IMG/VR virus record: IMGVR_UViG_3300020411_004483
Span: 1 to 40,185 of that record
DNA: 40,185 nt
Source of the DNA: a virus
Strand: one strand, 5' to 3'
Shown here: positions 4,272 to 34,191 of the stretch, piece after piece
How the letters are laid out: the number at the start of each line of letters is the position of its first letter
Numbering within the stretch: position 1 is the stretch's first letter
Notes under the pieces: generated by a model
Seen by the model: the letters and a program-made list of their open reading frames with translations, nothing else
Told to the model about the DNA's origin: nothing
The model's database searches: none
Translations under genes and position numbers: made by a program

Positions 4272-7200
4272 CTAATTTATCCTAAAATCCTCTCTTGAAA
4301 CAGCTTCAAAAAGTACGGTTCCAGGAGATATTGTTTGATTGTCCAAAGCTTTGATAAAAGCCTTTCTTCCAGTTAGCCCCGTCTTATTGAATAATGATAT
4401 ATTTACAGAGTCAACACCTGACACTCCAGCTGCAGTAGATATTATATCAGAGTAGTCAACAACAGAGCCTAGCGTTGACGTACTTAATATATTACTAACG
4501 GCGTTTGAAACATTTTGCAAGATTGTTTCTGTTTCTGATAGAGCATCATCATTTATAAGGATAGTTCCAGTTACATCAACTGTTATTTCTTCCGCTTCTT
4601 TTATTAAAACATCAGCTGTAATAGGCCTAACTGCTTCTATTTGAATTGTTGAGTCTGTTATCAGCCTATTTACATTATAGGTGATAGTAATCCTCTCCCC
4701 TTCTTTTGGAGACAAAAACATATAATCAGCAAAATACGTATCGCCAACCCCAGGCTGGTTTGTTGGATTTATAAAAATTTGGCCACGTATATTTCCAGAC
4801 GGACTTCTAAATCCAGACGTTACAGAGACCCTATCTATTCTTCCGAATCTATTTGTAGTAACCTTTTTGCTAGACGATGAGAAGTATAGCTCTTCAAACG
4901 CCTCTTCATTGAACACCAAAACAGATACCCTTAGTTTTGTTCCAGAAGAAGTAGAAATTGCAGAATTCGTAGGAGTAGACGGTAATTCGAACTTAAACCC
5001 ATCTATAGACGTATCAACTGTGCACGATCCTTTATCATATGTATCTTTAGATATAGAATAGCCTAGGATGTCGTATTCTTCATCTGGGTCTGAATACTCA
5101 TCTAGCGTACAAACCTTGTCTACTCTTGCTATTCCAATTGTATCAGGAATAGAGTCAATTCCGAGAACCTCTTTTAGCTCAGACTCTAAATTAACAACTA
5201 GACCCTCCATTGATGTTCCCTCAGATATGTCAAAAACATACCTATTAAGAGTAGTTCCTGTTATCTTTATCTTTCCTGCAGATGATATTCCGGCTATAGA
5301 CACAGAGAGCTGTGTCGCTCCAAATCTTGATATGCCAGATATGCCTCCAGATGAGTCAAACTTAAAAAATAAAGGTTGATTTGTTCCAGATAGGTCAGTG
5401 GCGCTTCTGCCCAAGAGACCATTTGTCGAGGTGCCTCCTGTTATAGGAAGATTTGAAAGCTCTATAGATGGGTGAAGCGATTCTATGTCGGCAACATACT
5501 TAACGTATACCACTTCGGACCCAAAGTACATTTCGTCTACAATTTCATTAATTTCTTCTGTTTCCATAACACTTTCAGATGGGAGCGTAATCGTCTTATT
5601 GGAGTAAGATCCATCTGTGCGCTCTAGATCATATAACTCTATCTTATTATAATATACAGTTACGGCATCATCAACAGACGCCACTGCATCAGATGGTAGA
5701 AATATTGTTCTAGACGAAAAGGACCCATCTGCGGCCTTTGTAGAGTAAAGCTCCAAGCCATCTGAGTCTCTAGTTATTGATATGATGTTTGAAACCTCAT
5801 CCTCAATTACACTAAGCTCTATGCCCGCCGCTGTTGTTGTGTCTGATGTAGGTATCATTGAAATTGCTCCAGAAGCAATCTCTTTTTTATAAACAGATAG
5901 CACTTTTGAAATCCTATAGTCAACTTCTACGTTAAACTCTATTTCGCTACTATCTCTTGTTATAACAGACTCTTCTTCAAATATTCCACCGGAAGAGGTC
6001 CAGTCGATTGCATCTACTGCAGACGGATCTCTAAATTGAGATAGGCTAGATGAGTTTCCATAATCAATGTATTCATCATATACTGATCTCCAGGTATAAT
6101 TAACGCTTAAAACATCTGCGGGGGTTGGCATTGATCTTCCTGTTATCTCAATTAGCCCATCTTCATTAAGCCCCGTTTCAGAGTCTACGCCCTGAGATGC
6201 TACGACATATACCTCTCCTGTCGTTAGATTTTGAACCCTACTAACCTTAACTACTGGATAGTGATTTAGTTGGATATAATTACTGCCTGCCGTACTAACG
6301 GTTGAATTCTCTCCTATTTCGTTTATATCTCTATATACATTGTATACAGAAGAAATATCAGAGAAAGATAATGGATCAATGCTATTGCTTCCCTTTTTTA
6401 TAACGCCCTCTGCCTCTACTGTTTTTGTATTAGATACAAAGCTTATTTTATCAAAACCAAATGGGCTACCTCCAGTTTCTGGATTTAAATCTTTTTCCAA
6501 CTTGTAGTTTCCAACAATTTTTCCATCTGAATCTGTATAACTCTCTTTTAATAACCCAGATGAACTTCCAGAAACTGTTACCAGAGAATCTACAGGCTGC
6601 GCAGGCAAAGATCCTGTTTTGAAAGACAAAACCCTTCTCTCTTCAGAAGTCCTAGTCGGATCTTGACCAGACTGGCCTATAACATGATCATTTCTTTCGT
6701 CTGAAATATTCCCCGTTCCCGAAAGATCTGTAAACAAATAAGACTCTGCTACCTGCTGAACCTTTCTTCCTAATATATATACATCAACCTTCCCGCCTGT
6801 TCCTGAGTTTAAAATTCTATATGAACCATCTTCAGTTTCTATGGTCTCTGTACCGTCCCTTAGCATCAAAGAGCTTCCAGGCTCTACAACAAGCGCATCT
6901 AACACGCCTTCTACTCCCAATAGTGTATTTCTATAACCGGCAGAAGTTCCAATATTTGCACCGCTAAATACACTCAAGATTCTAGATCTAAAAGATACAT
7001 CCGTCTCCCTGTTTGTTCCTCCGCTTAATGCCAAAAGGTTTGTTACAGACGCATTAGAAGATAAGTTGCTATCAATAATCTGAAGCGATGCCACATTTCC
7101 GGTTGTCCCAGAACGCATCGCCTGAACCGGAACCTCTATGGCATATTTGCTGCTAATGCCAGCTATATTTAGAGATTTCCTCATCCTACTTGCATTTGCG

Positions 7201-7601
7201 GCAAGACGATTTTTATCAGATGATGCCATAAGATAGTTTCCTATCGTTTTGAATTTAACCCCATTTCTGGCAGTTACCGTAGTTCCGGTGGGTATTGATA
7301 CGTCTGAAGCAAGCGAATTTGTGCAAAAAACAACAACGCCGCCAGCAGGAGTTCCTGTGGCTCTAGATACTCCAAAGTTTGAGGCCAAAAGATCAAGATC
7401 TCTACCGGCTGTTGTTGCCAAAGACTGCTTCTCTGAAACTACAGCTATTGCCTTATATAGCCTTGCTATTTGATCTGCGGGAAGATCAACAAACAAGTCT
7501 CTAGCCACAGAGCCGGGCTTAGTGTCAAGATTGGGCTGAGTTAGCTTTAGCCTGTCTATTATTGTTGCAACAATCTCGCTAAATGATCTATTTGAGGCCA
7601 T
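4272..7601 (-). CDS. Baseplate wedge protein, gpJ/gp6-like (Baseplate_J family)
   Basis: This 1109-aa protein should form the baseplate wedge ring that joins hub to periphery and rearranges on contraction. Residues 1-120 show the family pattern: a helical start, TKPGSVARDLFVDLPAD, LDLLASNFGVSRATGTPAGG, and a beta segment with IPTGTTVTARNGVKFKT. Around residues 200-240 comes GGTNRETDVSFRSRI, then a GYRNTLLGVEGVLDALVV stretch typical of the core. The C-terminus (SDIISTAAGVSGVDSVNI) returns to the family core, so a beta-rich insert of roughly 700 residues splits it. T4 gp6 is about 660 aa and P2 gpJ about 300. The insert includes a tandem duplication (about 616-700) and a TTGEVY motif near 459. 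The gene starts 11 nt after the gp25-like gene with AGGAGA as SD. Family assignment is strong; the insert's function is unknown. Confidence 0.9.
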   Translation of the reverse strand: MASNRSFSEIVATIIDRLKLTQPNLDTKPGSVARDLFVDLPADQIARLYKAIAVVSEKQSLATTAGRDLDLLASNFGVSRATGTPAGGVVVFCTNSLASDVSIPTGTTVTARNGVKFKTIGNYLMASSDKNRLAANASRMRKSLNIAGISSKYAIEVPVQAMRSGTTGNVASLQIIDSNLSSNASVTNLLALSGGTNRETDVSFRSRILSVFSGANIGTSAGYRNTLLGVEGVLDALVVEPGSSLMLRDGTETIETEDGSYRILNSGTGGKVDVYILGRKVQQVAESYLFTDLSGTGNISDERNDHVIGQSGQDPTRTSEERRVLSFKTGSLPAQPVDSLVTVSGSSSGLLKESYTDSDGKIVGNYKLEKDLNPETGGSPFGFDKISFVSNTKTVEAEGVIKKGSNSIDPLSFSDISSVYNVYRDINEIGENSTVSTAGSNYIQLNHYPVVKVSRVQNLTTGEVYVVASQGVDSETGLNEDGLIEITGRSMPTPADVLSVNYTWRSVYDEYIDYGNSSSLSQFRDPSAVDAIDWTSSGGIFEEESVITRDSSEIEFNVEVDYRISKVLSVYKKEIASGAISMIPTSDTTTAAGIELSVIEDEVSNIISITRDSDGLELYSTKAADGSFSSRTIFLPSDAVASVDDAVTVYYNKIELYDLERTDGSYSNKTITLPSESVMETEEINEIVDEMYFGSEVVYVKYVADIESLHPSIELSNLPITGGTSTNGLLGRSATDLSGTNQPLFFKFDSSGGISGISRFGATQLSVSIAGISSAGKIKITGTTLNRYVFDISEGTSMEGLVVNLESELKEVLGIDSIPDTIGIARVDKVCTLDEYSDPDEEYDILGYSISKDTYDKGSCTVDTSIDGFKFELPSTPTNSAISTSSGTKLRVSVLVFNEEAFEELYFSSSSKKVTTNRFGRIDRVSVTSGFRSPSGNIRGQIFINPTNQPGVGDTYFADYMFLSPKEGERITITYNVNRLITDSTIQIEAVRPITADVLIKEAEEITVDVTGTILINDDALSETETILQNVSNAVSNILSTSTLGSVVDYSDIISTAAGVSGVDSVNISLFNKTGLTGRKAFIKALDNQTISPGTVLFEAVSREDFRIN
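5500..5760 (-). repeat. Tandem duplicated protein module inside the gpJ-like gene
   Basis: Two adjacent segments of the gpJ-like protein align by eye. Copy 1 (about residues 616-652) reads ELYSTKAADGSFSSRTIFLP and copy 2 (about 653-700) reads ELYDLERTDGSYSNKTITLP; each is followed by an acidic stretch and a short aromatic beta strand (VTVYYN, VVYVKYV). The shared pattern is ELY, five residues, DGS[FY]S, TI.LPS. Copy 2 has about 10 extra residues before its last strand. This looks like a duplicated small beta module, not a DNA-level repeat, since the codons differ. Confidence 0.7.
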
Positions 7602-7612
7602 TCTTTATTCTC

Positions 7613-8044
7613 CTAAAATAATCTAATGGTAACATTATTAGTTACTTCACTTAATTCTTGTGTTAGTACAGATACAAAAACATTATACATTCTTGGGTCC
7701 AATTCATCTCTTCCTACGGATATGTCTAATATTTCTATTATAATCTCTCCTGGAGATAACCTTTGGCGCTTTGACTGAGATCTTTGAAGCGCCATTAAAT
7801 TTCTTAAGGCTTTATTTGCAGACGATGTTAGGTCTAATTCTATAAACTTTGGATCTGCATAATGACCTATTTCTATTGCCCCAATATGACTTCCATAGTT
7901 TGGATGAAACTTATTATCTCCAATTTCTGTTAGCAGTATTTTGATAATATCTTGTTTTAATTTAGAATTGGACGTTACAGTTGATACAGAGCCCTTATCT
8001 GTTATTTTAATGTCGCCTCTATGAAGCGTTAGATCAAATGACAT
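7613..8044 (-). CDS. Baseplate wedge protein, gp25/gpW-like
   Basis: A 143-aa protein of the gp25-like (GPW_gp25) family, the small conserved wedge subunit that binds the gpJ/gp6 wedge next to the hub. Visible family features are a short N-terminal beta segment, a helix with LKQDIIKILLTEIGDNKFHPNYGSHIG (residues about 27-55, read in two pieces), and a C-terminal strand region. Length fits T4 gp25 (132 aa). The open frame continues two codons upstream to a TTG at 8050, but AGGAAGG at 8051-8057 sits 6 nt before the ATG at 8044 and would abut the TTG, so 8044 is preferred. The gene follows an 80-nt AT-rich gap, the longest here within the baseplate cluster, and is followed 11 nt later by its expected partner gpJ. 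Confidence 0.88.
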   Translation of the reverse strand: MSFDLTLHRGDIKITDKGSVSTVTSNSKLKQDIIKILLTEIGDNKFHPNYGSHIGAIEIGHYADPKFIELDLTSSANKALRNLMALQRSQSKRQRLSPGEIIIEILDISVGRDELDPRMYNVFVSVLTQELSEVTNNVTIRLF

Positions 8045-8050
8045 AATCAA

Positions 8051-8124: not shown

Positions 8125-10179
8125 TCAGTCTTCTTGAGAATTGGTATATACAAAAACTCCTATTCGTCCAATTTCTAGGGTCTTTAAAAAAAGCTGATAA
8201 ACATCATATGATCTTTTTGTCACATCATTTACAGCATCAGCTATTGTTCTTCTTTCAAAACTATCAAAAAACCCGTCCGGAAACTCTTTCCTCATATTGT
8301 CAAACTGAGTTGGAGACAGCAAGGATAGCAATAAGGTTTCTGGCATTGTAAATAAGGCAGTAACGATAGCTAAGATATCCAAAGCTCCAACTCCCTTGGT
8401 AAAGCCTATTTTTGAAGCAACATCTCTTCTTATCTCATCTCCTGTTTTTGCAGCTGCTCGTTGATTCTCTTCGTCAATCTCCTCTCTTCTTGACCCGATA
8501 AACTGTCTAGGAAGAGATAATATAGACAAAACCGAACTCATAAGGTGTCCACTCTTAACGCCCGAATTCCTTTGAGTGTTACTTTGCAAATCAAGTGCTG
8601 CCGGCGTTGAGTTGTCTCCAAAAAGCATCATAAGAGAGTCCTCTATTGCTAATTCAAGATCTAAAGTCATCTCCTCTATGCTTGCAGTTGCTTGGGCAAC
8701 TGCAGAGCTTCCCCCGGGCCTTGTGACTCCCCCTGTGCTATTGTCTGAGGCCTGGCTTCTATTTTCATCTGGGATAAGTCCCGTATTTCTTTGAACTCTT
8801 GCCATTTCTTCTATATCATCTCTCATGGCGGTGGCAAAAGCAACAACAGATAGTGACAATCGCGTTACTACCAAAGCCTCTAGGAGGCCCATGCTATCAA
8901 CTATATCTTCAAATGTAAACTCAGCTTCTTTATTAGAAACAGATGTTGAGAGTGGTGGAGCTAAATTTTCAGCGGTAGGCATATACGTACTGGTTCCGCT
9001 TGTTTTATCCAGCCTGATTCTTATAATAGACTCTAACAGAGAAGACTTTAAGGGCCTTCCGTTTACAGTTCTCATAGAGCTTGGCAAAAATGGTTCTGCA
9101 ACAATCTTTCCAGGCTCATTTATGCAGCCAGAAATTCTTCCATCTTGAACTGGCGGATACAGCAGATAAGAGTATCTATAGAAATTTGAATTATCAGACA
9201 AGGTTTGTACCGATGGCAGAGCTTGTCTTAAAACAAGCTCATTCCAAAGGCCCCTGAAAAATGCCTCGCCTTCCTCTCCAGGGCTCGCAACAGCCATTCC
9301 TTGTAATGTTACGCGAAGCATCTCATTAGTCTCTAATCCAGCTACAGCTGTGGTAAATATATAATAGATTGAATCTTCACCAAGCAAACCCTCATCTCCA
9401 AATGCTTCTTCCGAGCCATACCTTCCGGTTAGTACATTTAGGATAATCTCAGGATATATACCAAGAGCAGACTGTGATTCTGAAACATGTTGATTTCCAG
9501 TTAAAATTCCAACTAATTGATCTACAGCTTGTTGTACTTGAAAATCAGATTTATCTTGAGACAGCACTATAAAAGAAAATAATTCCGCCATATTAACCAT
9601 GGCTTCCCGACTTGAATAGCCTGTGTTTACAAGAGAATTCAAGCAGGTGTCGATCTGGGACGCCATATCAAAGGCTTTATTCCCTGCTACAAACTCTCTA
9701 GAGCCAGGGTCTAATTGTCTTTTGTCCAATATGCTTTCATATCTGCTATATACATAAGATTGATCTTCAATCAGCTCTCCTTGTATGCTTATGTAGCTAA
9801 GATAATCAGAGGCGCTTATATCAGATGTAGATGGCATTCCAAGCATTCTCATGAAGGTATTCTCATAAGACTCCATGAGAGCCTCCTCTCCGGCAATCTG
9901 CTGCATACTGGTGATGTTTCCAGATAGATCAACTGACTCTTGAGCCAGCTCAAAAGGTATGTATGAGGATCTCATATTTGCAACTTCTGAAAATAAATCT
10001 TCAAACTTTTTAACTACAGTCTTTACCTTTGTTGCAAAGTTTTCAACACTCGCTGCAGACAAAGATCCTGTTCCACCATCTTGAACTCCATATGTTGTTT
10101 CAAGAGCGGCAAGAGCCTGAGATAAAGAATCTTTTAGGCCGCTTTTGCCATATTCACCCAAGACTTCTTGTATACTCAT
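8125..10179 (-). CDS. Unrecognised 684-aa virion/baseplate protein
   Basis: I do not recognise this family. The 684-aa product looks mainly alpha-helical, with a Ser/Gly/Thr-rich linker near residues 465-495 and a helix-rich C-terminal third. A hydrophobic patch (LDILAIVTALFTMPETLLLS) lies near residues 605-630 and could be a buried or membrane-contacting helix pair; no signal peptide is seen. It begins 2 nt after the stop of the 2712-aa gene with GGAGA as SD, so the two are likely co-translated, and an 80-nt AT-rich gap follows before the gp25-like gene. Its position inside the baseplate cluster suggests a structural or assembly role with the giant protein. Enzymatic function is not indicated. 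Confidence 0.75.
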   Translation of the reverse strand: MSIQEVLGEYGKSGLKDSLSQALAALETTYGVQDGGTGSLSAASVENFATKVKTVVKKFEDLFSEVANMRSSYIPFELAQESVDLSGNITSMQQIAGEEALMESYENTFMRMLGMPSTSDISASDYLSYISIQGELIEDQSYVYSRYESILDKRQLDPGSREFVAGNKAFDMASQIDTCLNSLVNTGYSSREAMVNMAELFSFIVLSQDKSDFQVQQAVDQLVGILTGNQHVSESQSALGIYPEIILNVLTGRYGSEEAFGDEGLLGEDSIYYIFTTAVAGLETNEMLRVTLQGMAVASPGEEGEAFFRGLWNELVLRQALPSVQTLSDNSNFYRYSYLLYPPVQDGRISGCINEPGKIVAEPFLPSSMRTVNGRPLKSSLLESIIRIRLDKTSGTSTYMPTAENLAPPLSTSVSNKEAEFTFEDIVDSMGLLEALVVTRLSLSVVAFATAMRDDIEEMARVQRNTGLIPDENRSQASDNSTGGVTRPGGSSAVAQATASIEEMTLDLELAIEDSLMMLFGDNSTPAALDLQSNTQRNSGVKSGHLMSSVLSILSLPRQFIGSRREEIDEENQRAAAKTGDEIRRDVASKIGFTKGVGALDILAIVTALFTMPETLLLSLLSPTQFDNMRKEFPDGFFDSFERRTIADAVNDVTKRSYDVYQLFLKTLEIGRIGVFVYTNSQED

Positions 10180-10181
10180 TT

Positions 10182-13100
10182 TTAATTCTCCAGCTTAGTT
10201 CCGAAGGTTTGAGGTCCAGGCTTAGCAGACTTGGCGCTAAGATCCCTGTCGTCATCTCCATACTTATCGCCAGCTCCACTTGTTTTCGTAAACAGGATTG
10301 TCAAAAGCCTATCTACCTTCATTAATGCTCCTGGTGCGAAAATTTCTTGACCATCCTCATCGACAGAAACTGCATCATCAATACAATCTACTGCCGAGGG
10401 GTCTAACTGTAATTCGCTATCTTGAATTCCTCTCTCTGTAACCGCTTGAATCACCACTCCACAAACCTCCGCTCTTATAACTACCTTTCCTGGTGTCTCT
10501 GTATATATAGCGGCAGTATAAGTAGTTCCGTCTTTTACAATAAGGTCTTCTTCTCCATCATTAACCGGAACAAGGGTTGCTCCAGTTTCAGTCTCATCTA
10601 CAACAAAGCTTATTTTTATCTTGTCCGTAAGATCTAATGCCTCTGACATTTCATCATCATAAGAGTCTCTTGGTATAAGTGTGACAAATGCTTTTTTGGT
10701 AGACTCTAAGGTTAAAAGATCTCCAATTCCAGATGCATACTCCATAGCTCCTGTTACCATCGGAAGGCCATCCAGGTCTGTATCCCAATTTTCAGTTATT
10801 TGAGCCAGCTCTTTTAGATCTGCCTGCTCTGGGTTTACAAAGTTTGGAAGATCTGTATCATCCTCATCGTCATTTAAGTAAAAGCTTGTATTTAACGGAT
10901 TCAAAGTATATTCACAAGAGTTATCTATAGCATCATTAATACACTCTACAAGCGTATCATACTCGCCTTTTATAGATGAACTAAAGTGTCCATCCGGCTC
11001 TATTAGGTCATCTACTATTGGCACTTTGGACCAAACTTCGCCATTTTCAAGGTGGTGTCTAACCATTGGTATGACACCAAGAGGAACGCCCGTTTCTGGG
11101 TGCGGCTCTTCATTCTTGAAGTAGTCTAAAAATGCCTTGAGACAGTCTTCTACCGGAGTTATGACTTCGGCTCCATAATCGCGATCTTCATCAAAGCCCG
11201 GTAGATCCATAAGCATCTCTGCTGGCATTGAAGCTCCGCAAGCAGCCGCAATATCATCGGCAACCTGCCTCATGTCAACTATATAAAACCTTGGAAAGTC
11301 AAAGACTTTTACATTATCTATTGCTTCTCCGATATCATTTCCTTCTTTCTTGTTTCCATGGGAAAAATCATATGCAAATCCAAGCTCTGGATGTGGCAAA
11401 TCTGTAAACTTATCGCTGTAATAGGCGCCTTTCCAGTCTTTACCGTCGTCAGTATCAGCCTCACCGGTAACATTAACTACAGTTCCTGAGCCCGCCCAAT
11501 CATCTCCAGAGTAGGGGGTCCATTCCGCACCAATTCCGTATGTTTGCGTCTTGCCATTCGTAACATATACGGGCACATCGGCTGGGGACACCGTTGTGCC
11601 GTCAGTCTTTTCAACTTGCTTCCCATCCAGCTGGCCAAGAATATATAATGCATTCGCTTGAGCTTGAATTATCTTTTCCCCACTAGTTATACCGTCACTA
11701 CTTATTCTGCTATGACGACCTTTTTCGCTGATCGCAATAAAATCTCTATAAACTTGCTTGTCTTCTCTTCCAAACTTTTTCTTTGGTGCAGAAGGATGAT
11801 TTATCATTTTTACATTTATAGATTCAATACTGTTTCCATTCATTTTTATTCCGCCTTCTGCGCCATCTGGCTCGACAAAATATACATTAAATGAATCATC
11901 AACCAGTGCTATCATTGGGATGTTTCCAAATGTCTTGGTGACGGTTACTGGCTCAAACTCTGCATCTAGTGTTGTCTCATTTATTCCGGGCTGATTAAGA
12001 TCTATGGTTACCGTCAATGGCTTTGGCTGGTATCCGCCGCCTTTTGCTTCCAAGAAACCTGTTGCTCCATCTATAGGACTGATAAAATCCTTGCTAGCGC
12101 CGGTATCATCTACAATCAAGTTTCCTGAATCTTCCGTCAAAAACATTGGTGGAGAATCAAGAGTTTGTATTTCATCTACGAGCTTCTTTCTAAAAAACAA
12201 TGGGAATATCAAAATCTTCCACCACCAGGCTATATCACTTGACTCTGCCTTTTCATTAAATTCAAATCTAACAATCCTAGGATCTGGGCCGGTGAATATA
12301 GAAAAGGCCTTCGTGCTTCTTGTGAATGACAGGCCAAATGTTGCATCAAAACGATTGCCAGTACCGCCAATATAGTCTCCGTTTACATAATTATCGCTAT
12401 CGCCACTGTCATCAGCTATAAATCTCAATCCAGGGTAGTCGATGCGCTCCATGGTTCCCGCCCCAGTTGTATCTCCGGCAAAGAATCCTCCATCTTGAAC
12501 CGTTTTAAGCTCTCCCGTCGTATTGTCTCTAAGCCCAGGCAGGTCGGCGCCTGGTGTTCCAGGCTCTGAGACCCTAGCTCCACCACTATCCTTGGCTCTA
12601 ACTATAAAATCGCCTTCAGCCAACAGCTTGTTGCATATATCGCTTGAAGACTTGCAGTCCATATCATCTTTATTATCACGCTTGTCCGGAGGAGAGTTTC
12701 CTGTAGACTTTGTTACACTAACTGGAAGTCTCGTATATGACTGGGCCAACGGAAGCAGTGCATCTGGCTCTATTCTTCCAAAGGGAGCTACCTTTCCAAC
12801 GATAAGTCCTGCAAGCATTGAGGCATCTATACAATTTTCTTCATCTGCATCATGACCGACCTTACATGGGAAGGCAAACAATAGCTGTAAAAGCTCAAGG
12901 AATAATGCCAGAATGGTTAAAATAGGCTCTAGAACCTCAAGGTCAGCCTCAAGGCTAAATAGATGTTCGTTTATCGCCTCTTCAAGAGCAACAATGGATG
13001 GGTAGTTCTTCTGATCTATTGCGGTTGACATAGCTGAAGATATTTCATTAATTGCAGTGATAATACTCAGTATTTTTGTTATAACGCAAAGGAGAAGCTC

Positions 13101-16100
13101 AAGGATATGAAGAAGAAGCGCAAGACACATCGCCGGAACAGAAAGTGGTGGCAACAATAGTATCAGGTCATATAGACATAAGAACAGCCTAATTATGGCA
13201 AAAGCAAGTCTTATCGGATGAAGAAGTGCACATATAACATCTATAATACAGAATATTATTTTTATTGGAATTAGAAGAACTTTAAAGTTTCTAAGCTGCA
13301 AAGACAGCTCTGCAGTTAGATGGAATGAAAAATCACAGAAACTTTGAATAAACTCTTTGGCGACATTAGCCTTGTCAAGCCTAACAGACGTGAACTTGAG
13401 AAAGAATTTTTCAATCTTCTCTTTTATATCACTTCCGGCTCCAGATTTACTCCTATTTCCACCAAACAATTGCTTGGCCCAGTTGTCATCTATATTAACA
13501 GCCTCATTTGCACCAACCGTTCGTCCCAGGCGCATTCTATTTTCATTTGTATTTGAAATAGCAATTTTTGTACATGGACTTGATCCAAATGCTGGAATCA
13601 TGGATAGGTTTGGAATTGTTATGTCAAAGTCCAAGAAAATTCCAGAAGAAGATGAATTATATCTGGACTCAACTCGCTTTCCTGCTACCTCAAACTTTGT
13701 ATCTAAAGTTGTGCCTATAGTCTTAAGTGTAAGTCTATCATCAGTTGTTATTTCAAGCTTACCAAACCTAAGGCCGTTGCTCCCTCCGGTTCTTGTATAC
13801 CAGTCGTCAGCGCCTTCTTTCTTTACAGCTACAATTTCAGGAACATTGAATTTTATTGCTGCATTTTGAGTGATTTTAGTTGTTAATGTTAATTGCCACT
13901 CAGTGTCATCTGAATTTGCCCTATAAGTTCCCGGAACAAGGTCTGCCTGATCTTTTAGATAAATATATTTTAAGTTTACCTTTGTAAAATCACTAGGCCT
14001 TGATGATAAAGCGTCTAATGCATCTGAGGCGGCATCTAACATATTCTGAACAATACTTGAAAGCTCATCTACTAAGGCAAGCAGGCTGTTTGCAAGATCA
14101 TTAACTGCTGCAACAGCCGCCTCTGCGGCATCTGCGGCGGCATTAAGATCTGCGACAAAGTCATCAACAGCCTGTGCTGCATCGGCAAGCCAGCCCCCGC
14201 CACCTGAGTCGGAGTCTCCTCCTCCTCCTGAGCTTAGAGCTATCTCTAACGCTTCAGCTGATGCCTCTTCGCCCGACATAGCCTCGGTAAGAGAATTAGA
14301 TGCATTTTCAAATTCTTCTTGCGGCCCCCCTGCATTCCAAGCATCAAGAGCCGCCTGTGCCTCTGCAGACAGCTCCATGCCACCCTCTACCGCATTATTC
14401 ATTGCTGCAGCAACATCATTCAATTCATTAATTGCATTTGTACCCTGACTTATTAACTCCGCAGGAGAAAACCTAGGCTCTACCATTCCTGTCGTAGATA
14501 CATCTATTATCTCCTCTTTTAAAAATCCTGTATCAGGATCTACAAGAGCGTCTGACAGATTTACTGCCCTAGTCACTTCTGCTGTATCCCCAGGAACCTT
14601 GGCCCCCAACACCAGCTTTGTAGATGGCATTATTTTTACAGGACTACCAAAACTGAGATAGCTCTTCGTATCCGTTGCGTCGGTACCTGGAATGTAACTA
14701 GAAGACGTGCTTATAGTCGGCATGTATGAGAAGAATGGAGATGGGTTTATGTCAAATATAGATGTTGACATATCTATGCCACCGGTTGTGGACCCATCCT
14801 CATTTACCATCTGAGTTATTTGCTTATCGCCACCTTTACAGTTCAATACAACGCTATCTTCTGTTGATAAAAATGGTGTACCATCTCCATCATCTTTTAC
14901 ATCCTCTGAGTCAAAGTAAACCGTTGTTCGAGTCCAAAGTGTAGAGTCATAAGATGTTTTAAAGCGTTTGTCATTCTTTTGAATCGTTATATCGGTCCAG
15001 CCCTCATCCTTTATCTCTGTAATATTCTTGAAGTTAGCAAGAATTTTATTGCCACCAATATATTTAAGCTTTCCAGCTCTATATTTCTTAAGTTTTTTTG
15101 TTCCAATATATACTTTATACCGCTTGCTTAGCCTTGGCTCCTTGGCCCCACTGAAAACTACAGCCAAGTGGTCTAAGGCATCTCCAGCGATAATTCTTTG
15201 CTCTGCAGATGAGTCATCTTTTGCAAGCTTTCTTTTTAATCCTGGCCTCAAATACTTCTTTATGGAATCTAAGTCATCACCACCAATTGTGGTTGCAGCC
15301 CTTGCATCGCCGCTTGAGGATGGAAGAGCGGCGACAAGCCCCAATACATGCGGTGGCTTCGAAAATGGCTGTGAAACTACTTGCTCTCCCCTTGAGACGG
15401 TTCTTGTCTGGCCTCCCATTGGTATTACGCCATAGTTTTGACCTTCAGCCAAGGCCTGGTCTTCTCCAGACCATTTAAAGTTTGTTATAATTATACAAGC
15501 AGACGCCTCTCCTGCGGCAGAAACAACCTCGGTTAATCTACTCAGGTTTTTTCCTGCCCCAACAGATCCGGGGAACTTTAAGGAGGCTTTTCTTTTTGTT
15601 ATAGAAGAAAAGTCTGACTGTCCAAATTCATACTCAAGGGCCATTGGAACCAAAAGGTTTGCCGTATCTCCTGAGTCATTAATCTTAACACTACCTGCGC
15701 TTCTAACTTCGTCTGTCCCTACAAAGCAAAAATCTTTAAGAATAGACTCTGCTTTTCCGGCACCATCATCTACAAGTGCTATATATGCATATAAAACATT
15801 ATTTTCTTGAAAGATTCCCTTATTTCTTGTCTTTATAATTAAATTAGAACTTGTGCCGTCCATAAGGACAGGCAAAGAGTGGAGTCCTTTTCCAAATTTT
15901 GGAACCTTAAAATTAAAAGGCTTCTTTATTATTACTTCAGCATCTGGGGGAGGCGGAAGTTCAGGTCCGGTTGTGCCCGGGCTTGCTATATAAAATGGCT
16001 TCAAAGGTGAAACATCGCCATTAGACGCCTCTAGTCCCATGTAAAAAGTACCAACGTTCCTAGATACGGCATCCCAAGTTGCGGTTGATCTAATGGTTAA

Positions 16101-18320
16101 AGATTGAGTGCTTTGGTTCATAAAATAAACAGACTGACCGTCGAGTTCGCTTCCATCTTGAAATGATGTCACCAAATCTAAGCCAAGCTCATCGCTATAA
16201 ATATTTACAGATACAACATCCATACCCCCTGTAAGCGTTAGCTTTGTATCAATGGTTGTTGATATGTCAATGACCTCATTGTGGTCATTAAAACCACTTG
16301 GCTTAATAGGACTTTGATCAGAAAATAGGCTGCGGCTTGGATACAGAGTTAGGTTTGTCCCCGGAATTCTTGCAAATTGTCCCAATTCATCAACAACATA
16401 TACCGCAAATTCAACAGATCTTGTATTATTATATAACTCTCTTCCACCTTTCTTAAATAGATCTGATAACTTTTCAGTTGAAAATTGCCAAACAGTAGGG
16501 TCTTCATCATTCTGACCAACGCCATCTACCTCAGACCATATGGCCGGTATCTGCCCGTCTACGTCCACCATAATATTTGGAGTAACAGATGCCAACACCT
16601 CAGATGCAGCAGTTGTATTGGGCTGATGAAAGAGCATATCATTAGCAGCGCTAGCCTCATCTCCATCTCTATATCCAATAAGAATTTCCGGCCGATTTAT
16701 CTCGCCATATAGTGCCGCTTGTTTTTTGATGCCGACCTTCGATAGCTTTACCTGGCCTGGAAAGCCAAGATTTTTAATAGGAATACCTCCAGCAGCGAAG
16801 CCAGGAATAATCATGCCGAGCTCAGCTCCAGAAGAGAAAGTAAGACCATTCACTACGTCAGATGAAAAAACACCGTTATTGGATGATGTTCCAAATAAAG
16901 GATCCTTGATCTGATCCTGCATGTAATCTATCCACTTGTCAAAAACATCTTCTACCCCTTCTTTTATAGCGGCATTTGAAACATCTACAATCCCAGCTTT
17001 CCCCTCGTCGGCAGGGTCCATAAAACATTTAGTCAAAAGAGGAGCTGTAAACAGCTCTATGCCATCGGATACTTCGTCAAAAGGCTTAGCTTTTATCTTA
17101 TTTTTTGATTCAAAAATTGGAGATAAAAAATATCTATAAGTGACCCCTTGTTTTAGCCCATCTTTAGTGAGAGTAATTTGCTCATCTTCAAAACCCTCAC
17201 CTGAAGAGTTTTTTACCAAATCATTATCTACCATCTCTGGGCACGGCGGGGGAAGATAATTAACTGCTTTTGCAGAATACTCAAGACCGTTCAATAATTC
17301 GAATGCAAGAGTTATAGTCTCTTCGTCTGCCGGGTTATCTTCCTGAGTAATATTATAAATGTTATCAGAAAAACCAGAACTATCCCTTCCAGATAGGTCC
17401 GGCATTTTAACATAAATAGTGTTACCAAGAGCTGTATAAAAGCCTATATCATTAACAACCCTGCCTCCGATTATAACGTCTTCATCAAGTCTAAATATAG
17501 GACAGATTTCCATTAAAAGCTTTGGAATAAGAGTATCTGCCGTAACTCCAGAGCCGGCCTTTGCCTCATCTAATGTTCCAGTTTCTGGATCAAGAACAAT
17601 CTTGTTTAACAATGACTCAAAAGTTTCTCCAGATAACCCTACATAGTTTTTCAGACCCGACTCTTCCGAATCTTTGTTTACAATTACTTCAAAAATCTTT
17701 TTTATAACATTTATAGGTATAAACTTAAAGTTACCCATAAGCCTAAGGCCAGAATATCTTTGATTATTCTCAAGCCCGGGATCTAATTGTGCCTGTAGAT
17801 CATCATGTGTTGCAATGGCTCCATCTCCAGAGACATAAGACGACATAAGCAGAGTAGGAACTCCTGCTCCATGATATTGGTCCAAAATAGACGGCATTGA
17901 AATAAGACATTTGTTTATCCTGTTTCTTGCCCCAATCAAATCACTTACGCTGGCAAACTCTTCGCTTCCTACTCCTGGAACCTTATTTTTTATATAGGTT
18001 TTTAATTTATTTATTTCTTTGTCATAAGTGCCAGAAAGGTTTGCATTCTCAGGGGCCTCTGAGTTTCCTGGCAGCGTATTTATGCTTGCGCTAGAAGGAA
18101 GAGCCAGCTTTACAATTGCCCCGCCAGACAGAGGTATTACCCCTGCAGTATCACTTGATTCCATTGGAAACAATACCTTTACCTCATCTACATCAATTGA
18201 CCTTGATGTATCAGAACTGGTAGATTCTCCGGGGAAGCAATTAACTTGAATTGTTGAGAATTCTTCTCTAGTTTTTATTGCACCAACTGCAAGTGGCAAT
18301 ATTTGTGATTTAAAACCCAT
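10182..18320 (-). CDS. Giant 2712-aa baseplate-cluster protein with hydrophobic membrane-like core
   Basis: A single uninterrupted frame encodes 2712 residues. I do not recognise the family. Visible parts: a beta-rich N-terminal half with FnIII/Ig-like stretches and a proline linker (LPPPPDAEV, about 785); an Ala-rich helical region (about 1283-1440) broken by a linker GGGGDSDSGGGG near 1365; a very hydrophobic run at about 1678-1757 long enough for three or four membrane helices, including FKVLLIPIKIIFCIIDVICA; one more at about 1795-1820 (ILTILALFLELLQLLFAF); a Trp-rich patch near 2030-2045 (IAWWWKILIFPLFF); and an acidic C-terminal third with several Cys. It lies between spike and gp25, 82 nt after the spike gene, with AAAGG as SD. 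A virion tail role is inferred from position. Membrane insertion during infection is my hypothesis; buried helices in a large assembly are the main alternative. Confidence 0.85.
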   Translation of the reverse strand: MGFKSQILPLAVGAIKTREEFSTIQVNCFPGESTSSDTSRSIDVDEVKVLFPMESSDTAGVIPLSGGAIVKLALPSSASINTLPGNSEAPENANLSGTYDKEINKLKTYIKNKVPGVGSEEFASVSDLIGARNRINKCLISMPSILDQYHGAGVPTLLMSSYVSGDGAIATHDDLQAQLDPGLENNQRYSGLRLMGNFKFIPINVIKKIFEVIVNKDSEESGLKNYVGLSGETFESLLNKIVLDPETGTLDEAKAGSGVTADTLIPKLLMEICPIFRLDEDVIIGGRVVNDIGFYTALGNTIYVKMPDLSGRDSSGFSDNIYNITQEDNPADEETITLAFELLNGLEYSAKAVNYLPPPCPEMVDNDLVKNSSGEGFEDEQITLTKDGLKQGVTYRYFLSPIFESKNKIKAKPFDEVSDGIELFTAPLLTKCFMDPADEGKAGIVDVSNAAIKEGVEDVFDKWIDYMQDQIKDPLFGTSSNNGVFSSDVVNGLTFSSGAELGMIIPGFAAGGIPIKNLGFPGQVKLSKVGIKKQAALYGEINRPEILIGYRDGDEASAANDMLFHQPNTTAASEVLASVTPNIMVDVDGQIPAIWSEVDGVGQNDEDPTVWQFSTEKLSDLFKKGGRELYNNTRSVEFAVYVVDELGQFARIPGTNLTLYPSRSLFSDQSPIKPSGFNDHNEVIDISTTIDTKLTLTGGMDVVSVNIYSDELGLDLVTSFQDGSELDGQSVYFMNQSTQSLTIRSTATWDAVSRNVGTFYMGLEASNGDVSPLKPFYIASPGTTGPELPPPPDAEVIIKKPFNFKVPKFGKGLHSLPVLMDGTSSNLIIKTRNKGIFQENNVLYAYIALVDDGAGKAESILKDFCFVGTDEVRSAGSVKINDSGDTANLLVPMALEYEFGQSDFSSITKRKASLKFPGSVGAGKNLSRLTEVVSAAGEASACIIITNFKWSGEDQALAEGQNYGVIPMGGQTRTVSRGEQVVSQPFSKPPHVLGLVAALPSSSGDARAATTIGGDDLDSIKKYLRPGLKRKLAKDDSSAEQRIIAGDALDHLAVVFSGAKEPRLSKRYKVYIGTKKLKKYRAGKLKYIGGNKILANFKNITEIKDEGWTDITIQKNDKRFKTSYDSTLWTRTTVYFDSEDVKDDGDGTPFLSTEDSVVLNCKGGDKQITQMVNEDGSTTGGIDMSTSIFDINPSPFFSYMPTISTSSSYIPGTDATDTKSYLSFGSPVKIMPSTKLVLGAKVPGDTAEVTRAVNLSDALVDPDTGFLKEEIIDVSTTGMVEPRFSPAELISQGTNAINELNDVAAAMNNAVEGGMELSAEAQAALDAWNAGGPQEEFENASNSLTEAMSGEEASAEALEIALSSGGGGDSDSGGGGWLADAAQAVDDFVADLNAAADAAEAAVAAVNDLANSLLALVDELSSIVQNMLDAASDALDALSSRPSDFTKVNLKYIYLKDQADLVPGTYRANSDDTEWQLTLTTKITQNAAIKFNVPEIVAVKKEGADDWYTRTGGSNGLRFGKLEITTDDRLTLKTIGTTLDTKFEVAGKRVESRYNSSSSGIFLDFDITIPNLSMIPAFGSSPCTKIAISNTNENRMRLGRTVGANEAVNIDDNWAKQLFGGNRSKSGAGSDIKEKIEKFFLKFTSVRLDKANVAKEFIQSFCDFSFHLTAELSLQLRNFKVLLIPIKIIFCIIDVICALLHPIRLAFAIIRLFLCLYDLILLLPPLSVPAMCLALLLHILELLLCVITKILSIITAINEISSAMSTAIDQKNYPSIVALEEAINEHLFSLEADLEVLEPILTILALFLELLQLLFAFPCKVGHDADEENCIDASMLAGLIVGKVAPFGRIEPDALLPLAQSYTRLPVSVTKSTGNSPPDKRDNKDDMDCKSSSDICNKLLAEGDFIVRAKDSGGARVSEPGTPGADLPGLRDNTTGELKTVQDGGFFAGDTTGAGTMERIDYPGLRFIADDSGDSDNYVNGDYIGGTGNRFDATFGLSFTRSTKAFSIFTGPDPRIVRFEFNEKAESSDIAWWWKILIFPLFFRKKLVDEIQTLDSPPMFLTEDSGNLIVDDTGASKDFISPIDGATGFLEAKGGGYQPKPLTVTIDLNQPGINETTLDAEFEPVTVTKTFGNIPMIALVDDSFNVYFVEPDGAEGGIKMNGNSIESINVKMINHPSAPKKKFGREDKQVYRDFIAISEKGRHSRISSDGITSGEKIIQAQANALYILGQLDGKQVEKTDGTTVSPADVPVYVTNGKTQTYGIGAEWTPYSGDDWAGSGTVVNVTGEADTDDGKDWKGAYYSDKFTDLPHPELGFAYDFSHGNKKEGNDIGEAIDNVKVFDFPRFYIVDMRQVADDIAAACGASMPAEMLMDLPGFDEDRDYGAEVITPVEDCLKAFLDYFKNEEPHPETGVPLGVIPMVRHHLENGEVWSKVPIVDDLIEPDGHFSSSIKGEYDTLVECINDAIDNSCEYTLNPLNTSFYLNDDEDDTDLPNFVNPEQADLKELAQITENWDTDLDGLPMVTGAMEYASGIGDLLTLESTKKAFVTLIPRDSYDDEMSEALDLTDKIKISFVVDETETGATLVPVNDGEEDLIVKDGTTYTAAIYTETPGKVVIRAEVCGVVIQAVTERGIQDSELQLDPSAVDCIDDAVSVDEDGQEIFAPGALMKVDRLLTILFTKTSGAGDKYGDDDRDLSAKSAKPGPQTFGTKLEN

Positions 18321-18402: not shown

Positions 18403-20889
18403 CTAATCTTCCGTTAGTTTTGTTGCTACTTCGGCAAGGCAAGCCACCATATCAATAATCTCTTCTGGAGTTATACTTTCTCCATCGCTAGTGGGAGTGT
18501 CCTGAGAGACAGGGGCTTTATAAGTAGGTCGTGGAGGACGATTGCCTTCGCGACATTCGATATTTGTTCCGGCCAATATTAGTTTATTTGTACTTTCAAG
18601 CATTAAATTTCCATCATTTCTAATAATCATGTTTGCTCCAGGCTTCATGCCTGCTATAACAAGCCCGTTTTCACTTATAGATATCAAATAATCAGATGCG
18701 TTATGCCCACCATCTGGCTTAAACTCTGTATCTCCAACTATCCCCTTGTTTGTGACATTAACCCTTAGATCAAATCTGCCTTTGTTAAAATCATTTCCAT
18801 TATGACCGCCAATATTAACCATAACGCCGCCATCGGTTTGAACGATCATGCTTCTACCATTGCTGTCTTTCCCAAACCATGCAACCAATGAACCTGCCGT
18901 ATCTAAAACCATGCTTTTTCCATCATGACTGTCCGCGCCTACGGACATCTCTATGGATCCCTCTAGATTTATATTTGCACTTTTCCCGCCAGGATTTTTC
19001 CTAGGCGCATCTGCCGTACCTACATTTCTAGCGCTAAGATCGCCCTCTGGGGATTCTGAAATCTCAAACGAATTACTGTATGGATAATTTATAACATTTT
19101 GCTGATTATCTGCCTCTGGAGTCAGGTTCTGTCCTGCAACAATAACGCCTCCTCCTGGATCTATTGCGGGCTTTTGTGGCATAACCTCCACTGTAGACAT
19201 ATAGGTGAGCAAGGCTGGGTTTGTTCCATCTCCCAATAATTCTGGATTTTGCTTTTCAAAAGGCTCCATGATAGGAGTTCCATGAACAGTATTAGAACAC
19301 CTCACAGACGTTGGTGCTATATGGAGTCTTGTTACATAATTAGCTATAAGCTGTTCTGCTGCTGCATACATATTATGCCACTTTGTAGTGTTTACACGAA
19401 CACTTGTCCCTGCACCACTAGCTACGGCTTCAAATCCAGAGAAGTAGCCATCTTCATTGGAAAACCTAATCCCAGTTCGCCTACGAGGATCTCCCTCTGA
19501 GGTTAGAGCAGATCGAGCATCCTCCGTTGGATATAATATATTATTCTTCTTGCTCCTAAGAGTGACCGGAATAACCTCCTCTCTTCCCTCAAGACCTCCG
19601 TCAACTCCTGCATCTGGAGTTGTAGATGTTCCTCCATCTATATTATAAAAGTTTGAATCTGTTATGTACGGTATGTTTCCAGACAAGGTTGATTTTGGAA
19701 CGTTTACCTTTAAGACGCCCTCTTTGTCTACTGAAAATACAAAATTATCCTTAGAGCCGGGTTTAGATTCGTTTGCAAAAGAACTAGCTCTTGTTGCCAA
19801 CTGGAAGTGATATCCTATACCTCTTCTGGTACTTCTTCTTGCGGCTTCATAATTCTTCCCCAAGTTAGATGCATATGGAGTTCCATCTGCCTCTCCAACC
19901 TGAACCACATTATAATTTATATCTAAGGCTTCTCCTCTAAAGTTTATTAGATTTCCTCCAACAATTTCTACAAGCTGGTGGGGCTCTAAATGAAGTATAT
20001 TCTTTGGATCCAAAGCTCTAACTCGATCATCATCTCTAAGTGCAGCATAAGAGGTCTCCATAGACACTTCTGATTCAGTATCAAAGCCTAAAAATCCAGA
20101 TGTTTCACAAAACTCATTTATAACCATTCTATACTCTGAAAGAGGTGCATTTCTTGGCTGCCTCATAAATGATACATCAGAAGCTCTTGCTCCAGGAAAC
20201 AACCCTCGCTCTATACCAACTCCCATCTGCCAAGGCGCAGAGAGTCTGTGGCCAACCTGGCCCGGCTCTATATTTATAGGGTTTGAGGCAGTACCCCCAG
20301 AAACAGTTTGCTCGACCCTAGTTCTCAAGACTGGGCCGTGCCTAAGTCTGAGTCCGTCACTAACACCCTGGTAGGAGTCGCTAACCATCGTAGCCTTTGT
20401 AGAATAACCACGAGAAGACATATAGAGCCCAGCGCCAGTTACATTTTTTAGCATAATTTGAGAATTAACAGCTGAATTTTTTAAAAATAACTCTGCGCCA
20501 CCTTTGTTCAAGATTCGTATATCACCTATGTTCATCGTCCTGATTGGATAAGGGGCCCATCCGGCAGGAACATCATCCCCTGGGCTTGAATTAATAGCCG
20601 TAGATATTCTATTTTCTCCAGATAATACTTTTATTATTTGAACTGGGCTTGATCGCGCAGGGTGAACAGATGTACACAAAACCCGTGATCCAATATCTGG
20701 AAATGAAAATATTCCACAATCTGAAGTTCCACCAAAAGCTGCATATATTGGCTCAACAATAGTTGCTCCAGTTCCATCAATATCTGTAGCTATGCTTATT
20801 GTGCCATTTTGAGGGTCTACATCTACAACAACAGCCTCAAATGCTTTTAGCTTGCCAAAAACTCCGTCAAGACCTCCTACTCTAGACAT
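18403..20889 (-). CDS. Baseplate central spike protein (gpV/gp5/VgrG-like)
   Basis: This 828-aa protein should be the trimeric needle under the hub that punctures the outer envelope. Residues about 1-95 look like an OB-fold: FEAVVVDVDPQNGTISI, then a segment with FPDIGSRVLCTSVHPA, as in gpV/gp5 N-termini. The middle is Gly/Ser/Asn-rich beta sequence. Residues about 620-790 contain short strands with G and N/D turns (SMIVQTDGGVMVNIGGHNG, NMIIRNDGNLMLESTNKLI), the style of a triple-stranded beta-helix. No lysozyme domain as in T4 gp5 is visible. P2 gpV is 211 aa and T4 gp5 575, so this is a long version. The start is 1 nt after the hub stop (TGA A ATG), with GGAGG inside the hub's end, so expression is probably coupled. 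Confidence in the family is good; the exact tip is not resolved. Confidence 0.82.
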   Translation of the reverse strand: MSRVGGLDGVFGKLKAFEAVVVDVDPQNGTISIATDIDGTGATIVEPIYAAFGGTSDCGIFSFPDIGSRVLCTSVHPARSSPVQIIKVLSGENRISTAINSSPGDDVPAGWAPYPIRTMNIGDIRILNKGGAELFLKNSAVNSQIMLKNVTGAGLYMSSRGYSTKATMVSDSYQGVSDGLRLRHGPVLRTRVEQTVSGGTASNPINIEPGQVGHRLSAPWQMGVGIERGLFPGARASDVSFMRQPRNAPLSEYRMVINEFCETSGFLGFDTESEVSMETSYAALRDDDRVRALDPKNILHLEPHQLVEIVGGNLINFRGEALDINYNVVQVGEADGTPYASNLGKNYEAARRSTRRGIGYHFQLATRASSFANESKPGSKDNFVFSVDKEGVLKVNVPKSTLSGNIPYITDSNFYNIDGGTSTTPDAGVDGGLEGREEVIPVTLRSKKNNILYPTEDARSALTSEGDPRRRTGIRFSNEDGYFSGFEAVASGAGTSVRVNTTKWHNMYAAAEQLIANYVTRLHIAPTSVRCSNTVHGTPIMEPFEKQNPELLGDGTNPALLTYMSTVEVMPQKPAIDPGGGVIVAGQNLTPEADNQQNVINYPYSNSFEISESPEGDLSARNVGTADAPRKNPGGKSANINLEGSIEMSVGADSHDGKSMVLDTAGSLVAWFGKDSNGRSMIVQTDGGVMVNIGGHNGNDFNKGRFDLRVNVTNKGIVGDTEFKPDGGHNASDYLISISENGLVIAGMKPGANMIIRNDGNLMLESTNKLILAGTNIECREGNRPPRPTYKAPVSQDTPTSDGESITPEEIIDMVACLAEVATKLTED

Positions 20890-26222: not shown

Positions 26223-27239
26223 TTAAGAACCTTTTTTGCTTTTTTCCCGCCTATTAACACCCAAGTCTCCATTGGACTCTCCTCCTTGGTCAAATGGGTT
26301 GAATTTAGACTTTTCTCCTGTTGAAGCATTAGGGTCATCAGGAGAGCTGTACATATTTTCATCTTTGTATATAAATGAAGAAAAATCATCTGTTTCAATG
26401 GGAAATGACAAATAGTTTACCTCAGGAAAAAGATTCTTAGACACAGAAGAAGGAGGTGCCATTCTCGTTTCTCCATCATACTCATAAGGATTTCTATGCC
26501 ACCTCATAAAGTTGCCTCTGTACCCTGTTCTTCTTGTGACTGTAAAACTTAAAGTATAAGTAAACAGGCCCTGCTCTTGTGCCGACTCTTTTACTGTAAA
26601 GTCTGTAAAATAACCTCTAAAATATTCTCCTTGATAAAACATATCTATATTTGTAGCAAGAGCGGCCATTGTTGGAGTTGATCCAAAGGCCCTCCTGTCT
26701 AACGAGCTTTGGCCTGCTCCTGAAAATGGATCTGTTATTATATCTATAGCATTAGAAAAACCATCTACAGCTCTAGAGAAGGCTCCTCCTGTTGCAACGT
26801 CTGCGATGGCGCCCAAGGTGCCACCTGCTCCAGAGCTCTCTTGTGCGGCAAGAGCAGACTCCGTAGCTGACTGTACAGTATTTTGAGCAATCTTTCTTTG
26901 CCTTTCGGCAAGAATCTCTCTCATCCTTATCTGCTCGTGTCTATATATGCTTCTTAAAATATTTATTCCTTCTATCCCAGAAGAGCCGGTAGTTCCTGTT
27001 ATGGATATTGTAGTAAGCTTTTCTCCCCAATACTGGACAATAAAGCCACCTTTTGTTTGATTGGCCTGAGTTATCTTTCCATCTGTTATATCAAATGATG
27101 TTGGATTTATATATAACTGTCTTCTAAGATGAGAAGAGGCTCCGTCATTAGAAGAAGAATATAAGTCGCTATCCGTTGTCAGTGCAGCCATATCAAGCGG
27201 CAAGAAAAAAACTATTGTTTGTCTACTTATCCTGGCCAT
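26223..27239 (-). CDS. Baseplate / tail-tube initiator-like protein
   Basis: A 338-aa protein between tape measure and hub. Residues about 40-95 contain INPTSFDITDGKITQANQTK and WGEKLTTISITGTTGSSG, then a helix IEGINILRSIYRHEQIRM, a pattern seen in tail proteins with a tube-like split beta-barrel that cap or start the tube. A Gly/Ala/Ser-rich stretch (about 110-175) interrupts the barrel. The strands resume near 195-250 (NIDMFYQGEYFRGYFTDFTV, FTYTLSFTVTRRTGY), and the C-terminus is polar and probably disordered. The ATG overlaps the tape-measure stop by one base (TAATG), with GGAGGAGGG upstream, so the two are translationally coupled. In T4 this place is taken by gp48/gp54 and in Bacillus prophages by XkdP-type genes. 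I infer a tube initiator or hub-accessory role; which one is unresolved. Confidence 0.62.
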   Translation of the reverse strand: MARISRQTIVFFLPLDMAALTTDSDLYSSSNDGASSHLRRQLYINPTSFDITDGKITQANQTKGGFIVQYWGEKLTTISITGTTGSSGIEGINILRSIYRHEQIRMREILAERQRKIAQNTVQSATESALAAQESSGAGGTLGAIADVATGGAFSRAVDGFSNAIDIITDPFSGAGQSSLDRRAFGSTPTMAALATNIDMFYQGEYFRGYFTDFTVKESAQEQGLFTYTLSFTVTRRTGYRGNFMRWHRNPYEYDGETRMAPPSSVSKNLFPEVNYLSFPIETDDFSSFIYKDENMYSSPDDPNASTGEKSKFNPFDQGGESNGDLGVNRREKSKKGS

Positions 27240-33800: not shown

Positions 33801-34191
33801 GAAGCTCTATGGCTCCTTTTTTATAATCTAATCTGTAATCAAACTCTGTAGAGAAGCCTGTAGTATCCCAAAGGTTATCTGAGGAGCCTACCGTGTCTTG
33901 AAGTCCATATAGAAGAGATCCATTTAGGCGAACTTCTGTTCTGCCGCTTACAACTGGAGAGTTTGGTATCTTAAAGTACCTGCTATCTCCAGTTCCTGTT
34001 GGACTATGAGTGGTGTTTCCATCAGCTCCTCCTCCAGCAGCGGAGTCAACAAGAGTTTCCTCCCTAATTCCTTCTCCCATAATACATGCGATTCTTACCC
34101 CACCAGGGATTGAAACGCCTCTTGAGATAACTCTATCTCTGGCAAATGCTCCTGGTTGAACAAAACCTGAAATTCCGGGTATGTTAGCCAT
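30895..34191 (-). CDS. Contractile tail sheath protein
   Basis: The sheath polymer contracts to drive the tube into the cell. The N-terminus (IPGISGFVQPGAFARDRVIS, then VSIPGGVRIACIMGEG) and the last 350 residues match sheath style: AAVSHCENMSSVANRKERMA, a domain with NVEDLVNFKLSDNYTSNRCV and FYVAACAAGWLSS, then NKSLSGFSILRSKVQRPVV, EDEEISIMFIRDKVKQVLRS and the closing strands INVFLQFTPAYPINYVFIDI. The core is split by about 650 residues of beta-rich insert (about 55-740), giving 1098 aa against 659 in T4 gp18. The insert probably decorates the outer tail surface and carries FDYRLDYKKGAIEL near residue 115, like bead motifs in the 1421-aa wedge protein. It has the best ribosome site seen (GGAGG) after a 70-nt AT-rich leader, suiting an abundant product. 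Confidence 0.93.
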   Translation of the reverse strand: MANIPGISGFVQPGAFARDRVISRGVSIPGGVRIACIMGEGIREETLVDSAAGGGADGNTTHSPTGTGDSRYFKIPNSPVVSGRTEVRLNGSLLYGLQDTVGSSDNLWDTTGFSTEFDYRLDYKKGAIELQGAYIKDQGGNGYSASSSNVGDGFIVEETCGTSSGAGGSTLQVIDSTAPPERWTVRCVAVKRDSSGNPIAGNASFTAVGSKSGQIYDASGNARTFSSSYHKITTGAVSGNVDPVADGLVVMDQTVGEGTATVATGDTTALTTNKFVVEADLISHGQAIAGDYLIVDATAYQIKSIAMGSLADSTDSNFSTITLTTDSLPVSGSATALWQVRATNVLIDGALEDHDANGDPISPGVFKSEDVGKVAVVCSGDAEGRYVITKVTSSRRARIHKYGDSTTGFPDLSESDYSDGIADDDLTVYLLETNGILLMGINESTTPFEVGDKFYVDVSGRALGRGDSLEVKYIYDADLNDPEFFTDAYALFAKHGSPSEDNTLALGAQMAMENGAPGVLAIQCKPAIPRRSSSYLLEEKDSLGNGGFAGCYSSGTASASACEVDDLRFVIPRPITGIRNGRPDSDTRVNLFVVRKGIETQIFPNKVDFYNSQLESETQQTNFISSSDFTFSYTIVDTGFDILGDGVDGDLGSDSTGDYFQSTEFDFDGSMESTANETTIVITSMEHPSSGAVYTSKADISTQLFGSSGFDPELTITTVASDKKAYVKAYPEGATLSFSAGSYKDVQFFIKDVGDTTNVDAALLLHRDIVESGVLQEGDGLKITYVDENDADYFDTNWFNAFEKLEAADAQMVVPLPKTAKSSIFRAAVSHCENMSSVANRKERMAFIGSIAGVTAAALIGSEEVAVEDIGILEGVQGDDASEVLDQNVEDLVNFKLSDNYTSNRCVYFWPDEIVRNVNGTNINLDGFYVAACAAGWLSSKQNVAIPLTNKSLSGFSILRSKVQRPVVLNSLGNVGATVLQPVTGGGKVLAGRTTSNSGFVEDEEISIMFIRDKVKQVLRSSLKGFIGGVQSADTNTLVANRTGSVMNGLVQQGLVTAYKNVKVSQDKVDPRQINVFLQFTPAYPINYVFIDIEVGII

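Follow-up and report, generated by a model that had tools for sequence, protein, structure and literature searches.

Passage of DNA over the inner membrane is poorly understood in contractile phages. Tape measures with hydrophobic domains, such as TP901-1 TMP and T5 pb2, resemble the protein described here in being tail-module proteins with several membrane-like helices beside soluble parts. T6SS PAAR-TM (prePAAR) effectors are hydrophobic-helix proteins encoded beside the spike VgrG. The transmembrane-like region of the TP901-1 tape measure is dispensable, and the authors of that study favour chaperone recruitment as its role (PMC5099701). A further likeness is seen in ejection proteins of the T7 gp14/gp16 type, soluble virion proteins with predicted transmembrane regions for which a role at the host membrane is assumed; gp16 is soluble, yet its two predicted transmembrane regions refold to cross the inner membrane (PMC8954989). 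In the recently described 'moraphages' (PMC12619734), Bacteroidota hosts are predicted and the tape measure was not identified; the giant-phage lineage studied here may overlap with this group.

The window, i.e., the whole stretch of DNA that was analysed, is a 40,185-base IMG/VR virus fragment. Its tail genes are colinear with the tail module of Bacillus phage G (gp178-gp189), and the sheath, tube, two chaperone-like genes, gp184, gp185 (hub), gp25 domain and J are homologous. However, the 2712-aa protein of the window (P0001, hereafter the core protein together with its homologues) and an adjacent 684-aa protein are unmatched in phage G, in which gp186/gp187 N-terminus fill the slot and are not hydrophobic. 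As judged from sequence comparison, it is well supported that the 2712-aa protein is the giant form within a hitherto undescribed family of baseplate proteins from huge phages with contractile tails, and that this family is new. What defines the family is an alpha-helical hydrophobic core bearing a Cys-x2-Asp/Glu-x2-Cys signature, and the beta-rich remainder outside the core, about 500 to more than 2,500 residues, is largely replaceable.

The gene and its slot in the tail module

The features of the window that bear on the core protein are as follows.

4272..7601, minus strand: gp6/J-like baseplate wedge protein (phrog_6, 2e-43; Bacillus phage G gp188)
7613..8050, minus strand: gp25-like baseplate protein (phrog_2669, 6.4e-13)
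8125..10179, minus strand: partner candidate, 684 aa, adjoining the core protein in nearly all loci
10182..18320, minus strand: giant baseplate-cluster protein P0001, 2712 aa, intact frame, assigned to the giant subfamily of the new family
10185..11369, minus strand: C-terminal part of P0001, residues 2318-2712, with an Ig-like domain, conserved Cys and a nearly invariant tail ending in Asn
12219..12227, minus strand: WWW patch, residues 2032-2034 (column listing)
12801..13400, minus strand: conserved core, residues about 1641-1840 (column identity; hhalign to the small subfamily)
12855..12944, minus strand: second hydrophobic helix, residues 1793-1822 (hydropathy), an arm of a helical hairpin predicted by AlphaFold2
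13038..13289, minus strand: first hydrophobic stretch, residues 1678-1761 (Kyte-Doolittle)
13230..13250, minus strand: CIIDVIC signature (Cys-x2-Asp/Glu-x2-Cys), residues 1691-1697, both Cys invariant
14001..14474, minus strand: Ala-rich segment and Gly linker, residues 1283-1440, dispensable
18403..20889, minus strand: spike-position protein, 828 aa, immediately upstream of the core protein, with homologues in the same place in relatives and a weak Tunturi_5 match
27239..29215, minus strand: tape measure by position, 658 aa, in a gene order as in phage G and without a membrane-like segment

An earlier note on this DNA, made from the letters, had described an intact frame of 2712 codons; frame and length stood, with the correction that the gene lies on the minus strand and reads from 18320 down to 10182. 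A weak ribosome-binding-like site, AAAAGG, precedes the ATG at 18320, and the N-terminal SxILPxxVG is kept among relatives. At the other end, an Ig-like PF23616 domain was found in at least 9 of 26 members (best 2e-5). Two features pointed out in the earlier note, an Ala-rich segment plus Gly linker and a WWW patch, are present; the former is missing from shorter giants, e.g., L097, L094 and L100, and neither is conserved in the alignment.

The slot order hub, spike, core protein, second unknown protein, gp25 and J is the same in both subfamilies described below: in essentially every locus that spans the slot, the genes for hub and spike precede that of the core protein, and those for the second protein, gp25 and J follow it. 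The placement between spike and gp25 in the baseplate cluster proposed earlier thus agrees with the gene order in the window and in its relatives, and a location in this cluster with conserved neighbours is what is expected of a structural baseplate protein. The name spike rests on position and on the earlier note, as the protein has no Pfam or PHROG match.

The core protein differs from a tape measure in several respects. Its slot follows the spike and precedes gp25, not directly after the tail assembly chaperones; its homologues range from 656 to 2763 aa, which does not fit a length scaled to the tail; the window protein matches no tape-measure profile in PHROG, Pfam or NCBIfam; and the window has another gene in the position of the tape measure. 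That gene, at 27239-29215, has no family match and takes its name from its place in the gene order. T7 gp14/gp16 are internal head proteins of podophages, whereas the core protein is encoded in a contractile baseplate cluster and has no sequence match to ejection proteins of the T7/P22 type. Unlike the T6SS PAAR-TM effectors, it carries no effector domain and no PAAR domain; a PAAR/prePAAR match in Pfam was absent from P0001, from the alignment members and from the small-subfamily member P0002.

Three other genes of the tail region, all on the minus strand, deserve mention. The product of 26223-27239, a homologue of phage G gp184, is a putative tail tube initiator (PF23980, 2.2e-5, just under the curated cut-off). 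The sheath (30895-34191) has 1098 aa compared with about 580 aa in phage G and matches at its ends and middle only, which indicates large inserts. Upstream of the sheath, 35417-35893 encodes a 158-aa protein with a carboxypeptidase-regulatory-like domain (PF13620, 3.6e-8).

Two subfamilies with a homologous core

Direct searches with the whole of P0001 gave no match in phage records, viral contigs, Pfam, PHROGs or PDB, and therefore the sheath was used as bait. This search revealed 37 related contigs, and searches of those records together with a core-alignment scan yielded a giant subfamily of 27 non-redundant proteins of 1554-2763 aa with the same genes in the same order around them; one of the proteins is truncated where its contig ends. 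In one locus (L102, 3702-10697), the parts of the giant protein are split over three genes of 733, 495 and 1056 aa, with the core on the same product as the C-terminal part. In another (L085), the giant gene is interrupted at 6423-6555 and continues in a second frame, but the frame is unbroken in L084, which shares 99.9% identity with it across a compared 2.3 kb; the interruption may be either a sequencing error or a real break.

An alignment of the 27 giants showed 56-80% column identity in the core (residues about 1641-1840) and 10-50% elsewhere, and CIIDVIC was invariant except for one conservative change. A distant match (L112) encodes a 715-aa protein in the same slot that has only the core in common with the giants. 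Extension by a DNA pattern search and a second alignment scan gave a small subfamily of 41 non-redundant members of 656-748 aa on contigs of up to 459 kb. The homologue search between spike and gp25 in other large phages that the earlier note had suggested thus found 27 giant and 41 small members in the slot. A small-subfamily locus (L171, JAIXLO010000160.1) lies on a 383-kb contig that was binned as a Chitinophagales MAG and is probably a huge phage contig.

The giant and small cores are homologous (hhalign 99.8%, E 9e-30, 188 columns), and no homology between the C-terminal parts was detectable by hhalign. The core is the sole region detectably homologous between the subfamilies and the most conserved region within each. 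Both signature Cys are invariant in the giants and in the small subfamily, in which the Asp is often Glu, so that C-I-I-[DE]-[VI]-[IL]-C provides a simple sequence signature for recognising the baseplates of these phages. In a tree of the core, all 27 giant-side sequences fell on one side of a split with a support of 0.997.

The earlier note could not tie the protein to any known family, and the database searches bear this out: the core family has no match in Pfam, PHROGs, NCBIfam, PDB or 50,697 phage records, nor was a clear match to a known non-membrane tail protein, which would have spoken against the earlier reading, found in the databases searched. Divergent members gave no tblastn match in the phage records, a search in which BLAST masks low-complexity sequence and could miss a hydrophobic core. 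By HMM search, neither the giant nor the 684-aa protein had a counterpart in phage G, Myrna, LE2-3, Tunturi_5 or LR745208. One small-subfamily member weakly matched PHROG tape-measure profiles over its hydrophobic region (E 8e-4), which is probably compositional.

The hydropathy of the core was measured by taking as hydrophobic any segment with a 19-residue Kyte-Doolittle window above 1.6. The run of about 80 hydrophobic residues and the second hydrophobic helix noticed earlier were recovered at residues 1678-1761 (peak 2.73) and 1793-1822 (peak 2.22). At 2.19, the 60-residue maximum of P0001 was higher than in any of 500 shuffles that preserved the composition (mean 0.95, maximum 1.60). Taken by itself, the 19-residue peak lies within what chance produces (shuffled maximum 2.88); the exceptional feature is the length of the stretch, not its peak. 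Among 388 de-duplicated long ORFs in the loci gathered at that stage, 35 had a 60-residue maximum of at least 1.40, and by their listed sequences all 35 belong to the core family. That the stretch is hydrophobic composition without a special role, or an artefact of a fused or mistranslated frame, might be argued from the 19-residue peak lying inside the shuffled range. However, this explanation is refuted by the conservation, with invariant residues and a single slot, among 27 giants and 41 members of the small subfamily, and we consider it extremely improbable.

Membrane engagement or soluble packing of the core

Insertion energies were estimated by simply adding up the values of a published scale. 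In the small subfamily, helix h3 (FLALIxMIIxLLLLILALI), a 20-residue uncharged helix that is transmembrane-like by any common scale, had a median energy of -6.7, and the value was at or below zero in 40 of the 41 members. As a control, only 1 of 231 other same-strand ORFs of at least 130 aa in the small-subfamily loci reached an insertion energy of zero. In the giants, helix h1 lies above the Kyte-Doolittle transmembrane cut-off in 27 of 27 members, and the estimated insertion energies of the window protein's own helices are only about -0.8 to +3, which is borderline.

The tape measure of the window contains no membrane-like run (19-residue maximum 1.32), as the earlier note had stated, and no transmembrane-like segment was found in the tape measures of nine relatives. 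The weight placed on this absence is reduced by the comparable tail modules of phage G, Myrna and LE2-3, in which neither the tape measures nor the other tail proteins tested contain such a segment; a transmembrane-like segment is therefore not generally needed. For the same reason, the idea that the tape measure lost a membrane domain and the core protein took over its function was dropped. In the tail loci examined, the core is the one consistently transmembrane-like core, and it is syntenic, conserved and located beside the spike.

The pattern of conservation around the helices differs between the two subfamilies. In the giants, the hydrophobic side of each of the seven helix segments points away from the side that varies (mean cosine -0.85, permutation p about 2e-4), and K/R/E/D residues occur along this variable side in divergent members. 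Such amphipathic helices with a variable polar face suggest soluble packing. They are what would be expected if a trimeric or hexameric bundle, with these helices in its interior and between its subunits, served to hold the baseplate together without ever contacting a membrane. In agreement with such a bundle, long continuous helices are predicted (69 residues in one model; 46 and 43 residues, pLDDT up to 90), and the conserved charges D1694/R1711 and K1687/D1718 would, from their spacing, pair across the first hairpin. In the small subfamily, however, the variability of h1 lies on its hydrophobic face (cosine +1.00), h3 shows neither tendency, and a 20-residue helix without charges and with an energy of about -7 would be very unusual for a soluble bundle. 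We regard the buried structural core as a real possibility, though short of an even chance. Even if the core merely packs inside the baseplate, the family is new to Pfam, PHROGs, NCBIfam and the phage records searched. The view that the amphipathic giant helices alone disprove membrane insertion was dropped as too strong, given the small subfamily.

AlphaFold2 models of residues 1440-2205 (mean pLDDT 65) and of the core (63) show long antiparallel helices. The second hairpin, with helices at about 1724-1769 and 1773-1815, has a pLDDT of about 80-90 over most of its length. The first hairpin, which is the most conserved and most hydrophobic, scored about 50-63. A low score despite the highest conservation is as expected if the true partner, an oligomer or a membrane, is missing from the model. 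A Foldseek search with these two low-confidence models returned nothing at E <= 0.001, ejection proteins included.

The membrane reading of the earlier note is thus strengthened by the transmembrane-like h3 of the small subfamily and weakened in the window's own subfamily, whose helices are amphipathic as in a soluble bundle. None of the outcomes that the note had named as refuting this reading emerged from the analysis. Whether the core engages the host membrane appears to us evenly balanced: the small subfamily and the T7 gp16 precedent help this estimate, and the giant-subfamily signature and TP901-1 temper it. If the core does so, it could be held in a folded state, or hidden within an oligomer, in the baseplate beside the spike; sheath contraction would then expose it, and by engaging the host membrane it might aid the crossing of the tube or the DNA, with the adjacent 684-aa protein as a possible partner. 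Because the giant-subfamily helices are amphipathic, any insertion there would probably occur as an oligomer with a polar face.

Formation of a channel or sealing of the DNA path, which the earlier note inferred, would be one step beyond membrane engagement. In its complete form, this proposal holds that huge contractile phages possess a dedicated baseplate protein, stored beside the spike and separate from the tape measure, whose transmembrane core would insert in the inner membrane at contraction and line or seal the DNA path. We consider it rather unlikely in this form; if true, it would attach a named gene to inner-membrane passage across a large group of uncultured giant phages.

A different function for the hydrophobic segment would be in assembly: it would recruit a chaperone or tether the forming baseplate to the host inner membrane, and would take no part in DNA entry. 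The TP901-1 authors preferred this explanation for the hydrophobic regions of their tape measure (PMC5099701), and it would suit the unknown protein encoded directly downstream of the core gene in nearly all loci. However, specific polar and Cys residues of the core are strongly conserved, more than a generic chaperone site needs, and an assembly device seems improbable. The downstream protein is the 684-aa protein of the window and its homologues. It has no family match in the profile databases and contains a conserved amphipathic/hydrophobic helix at residues about 600-622.
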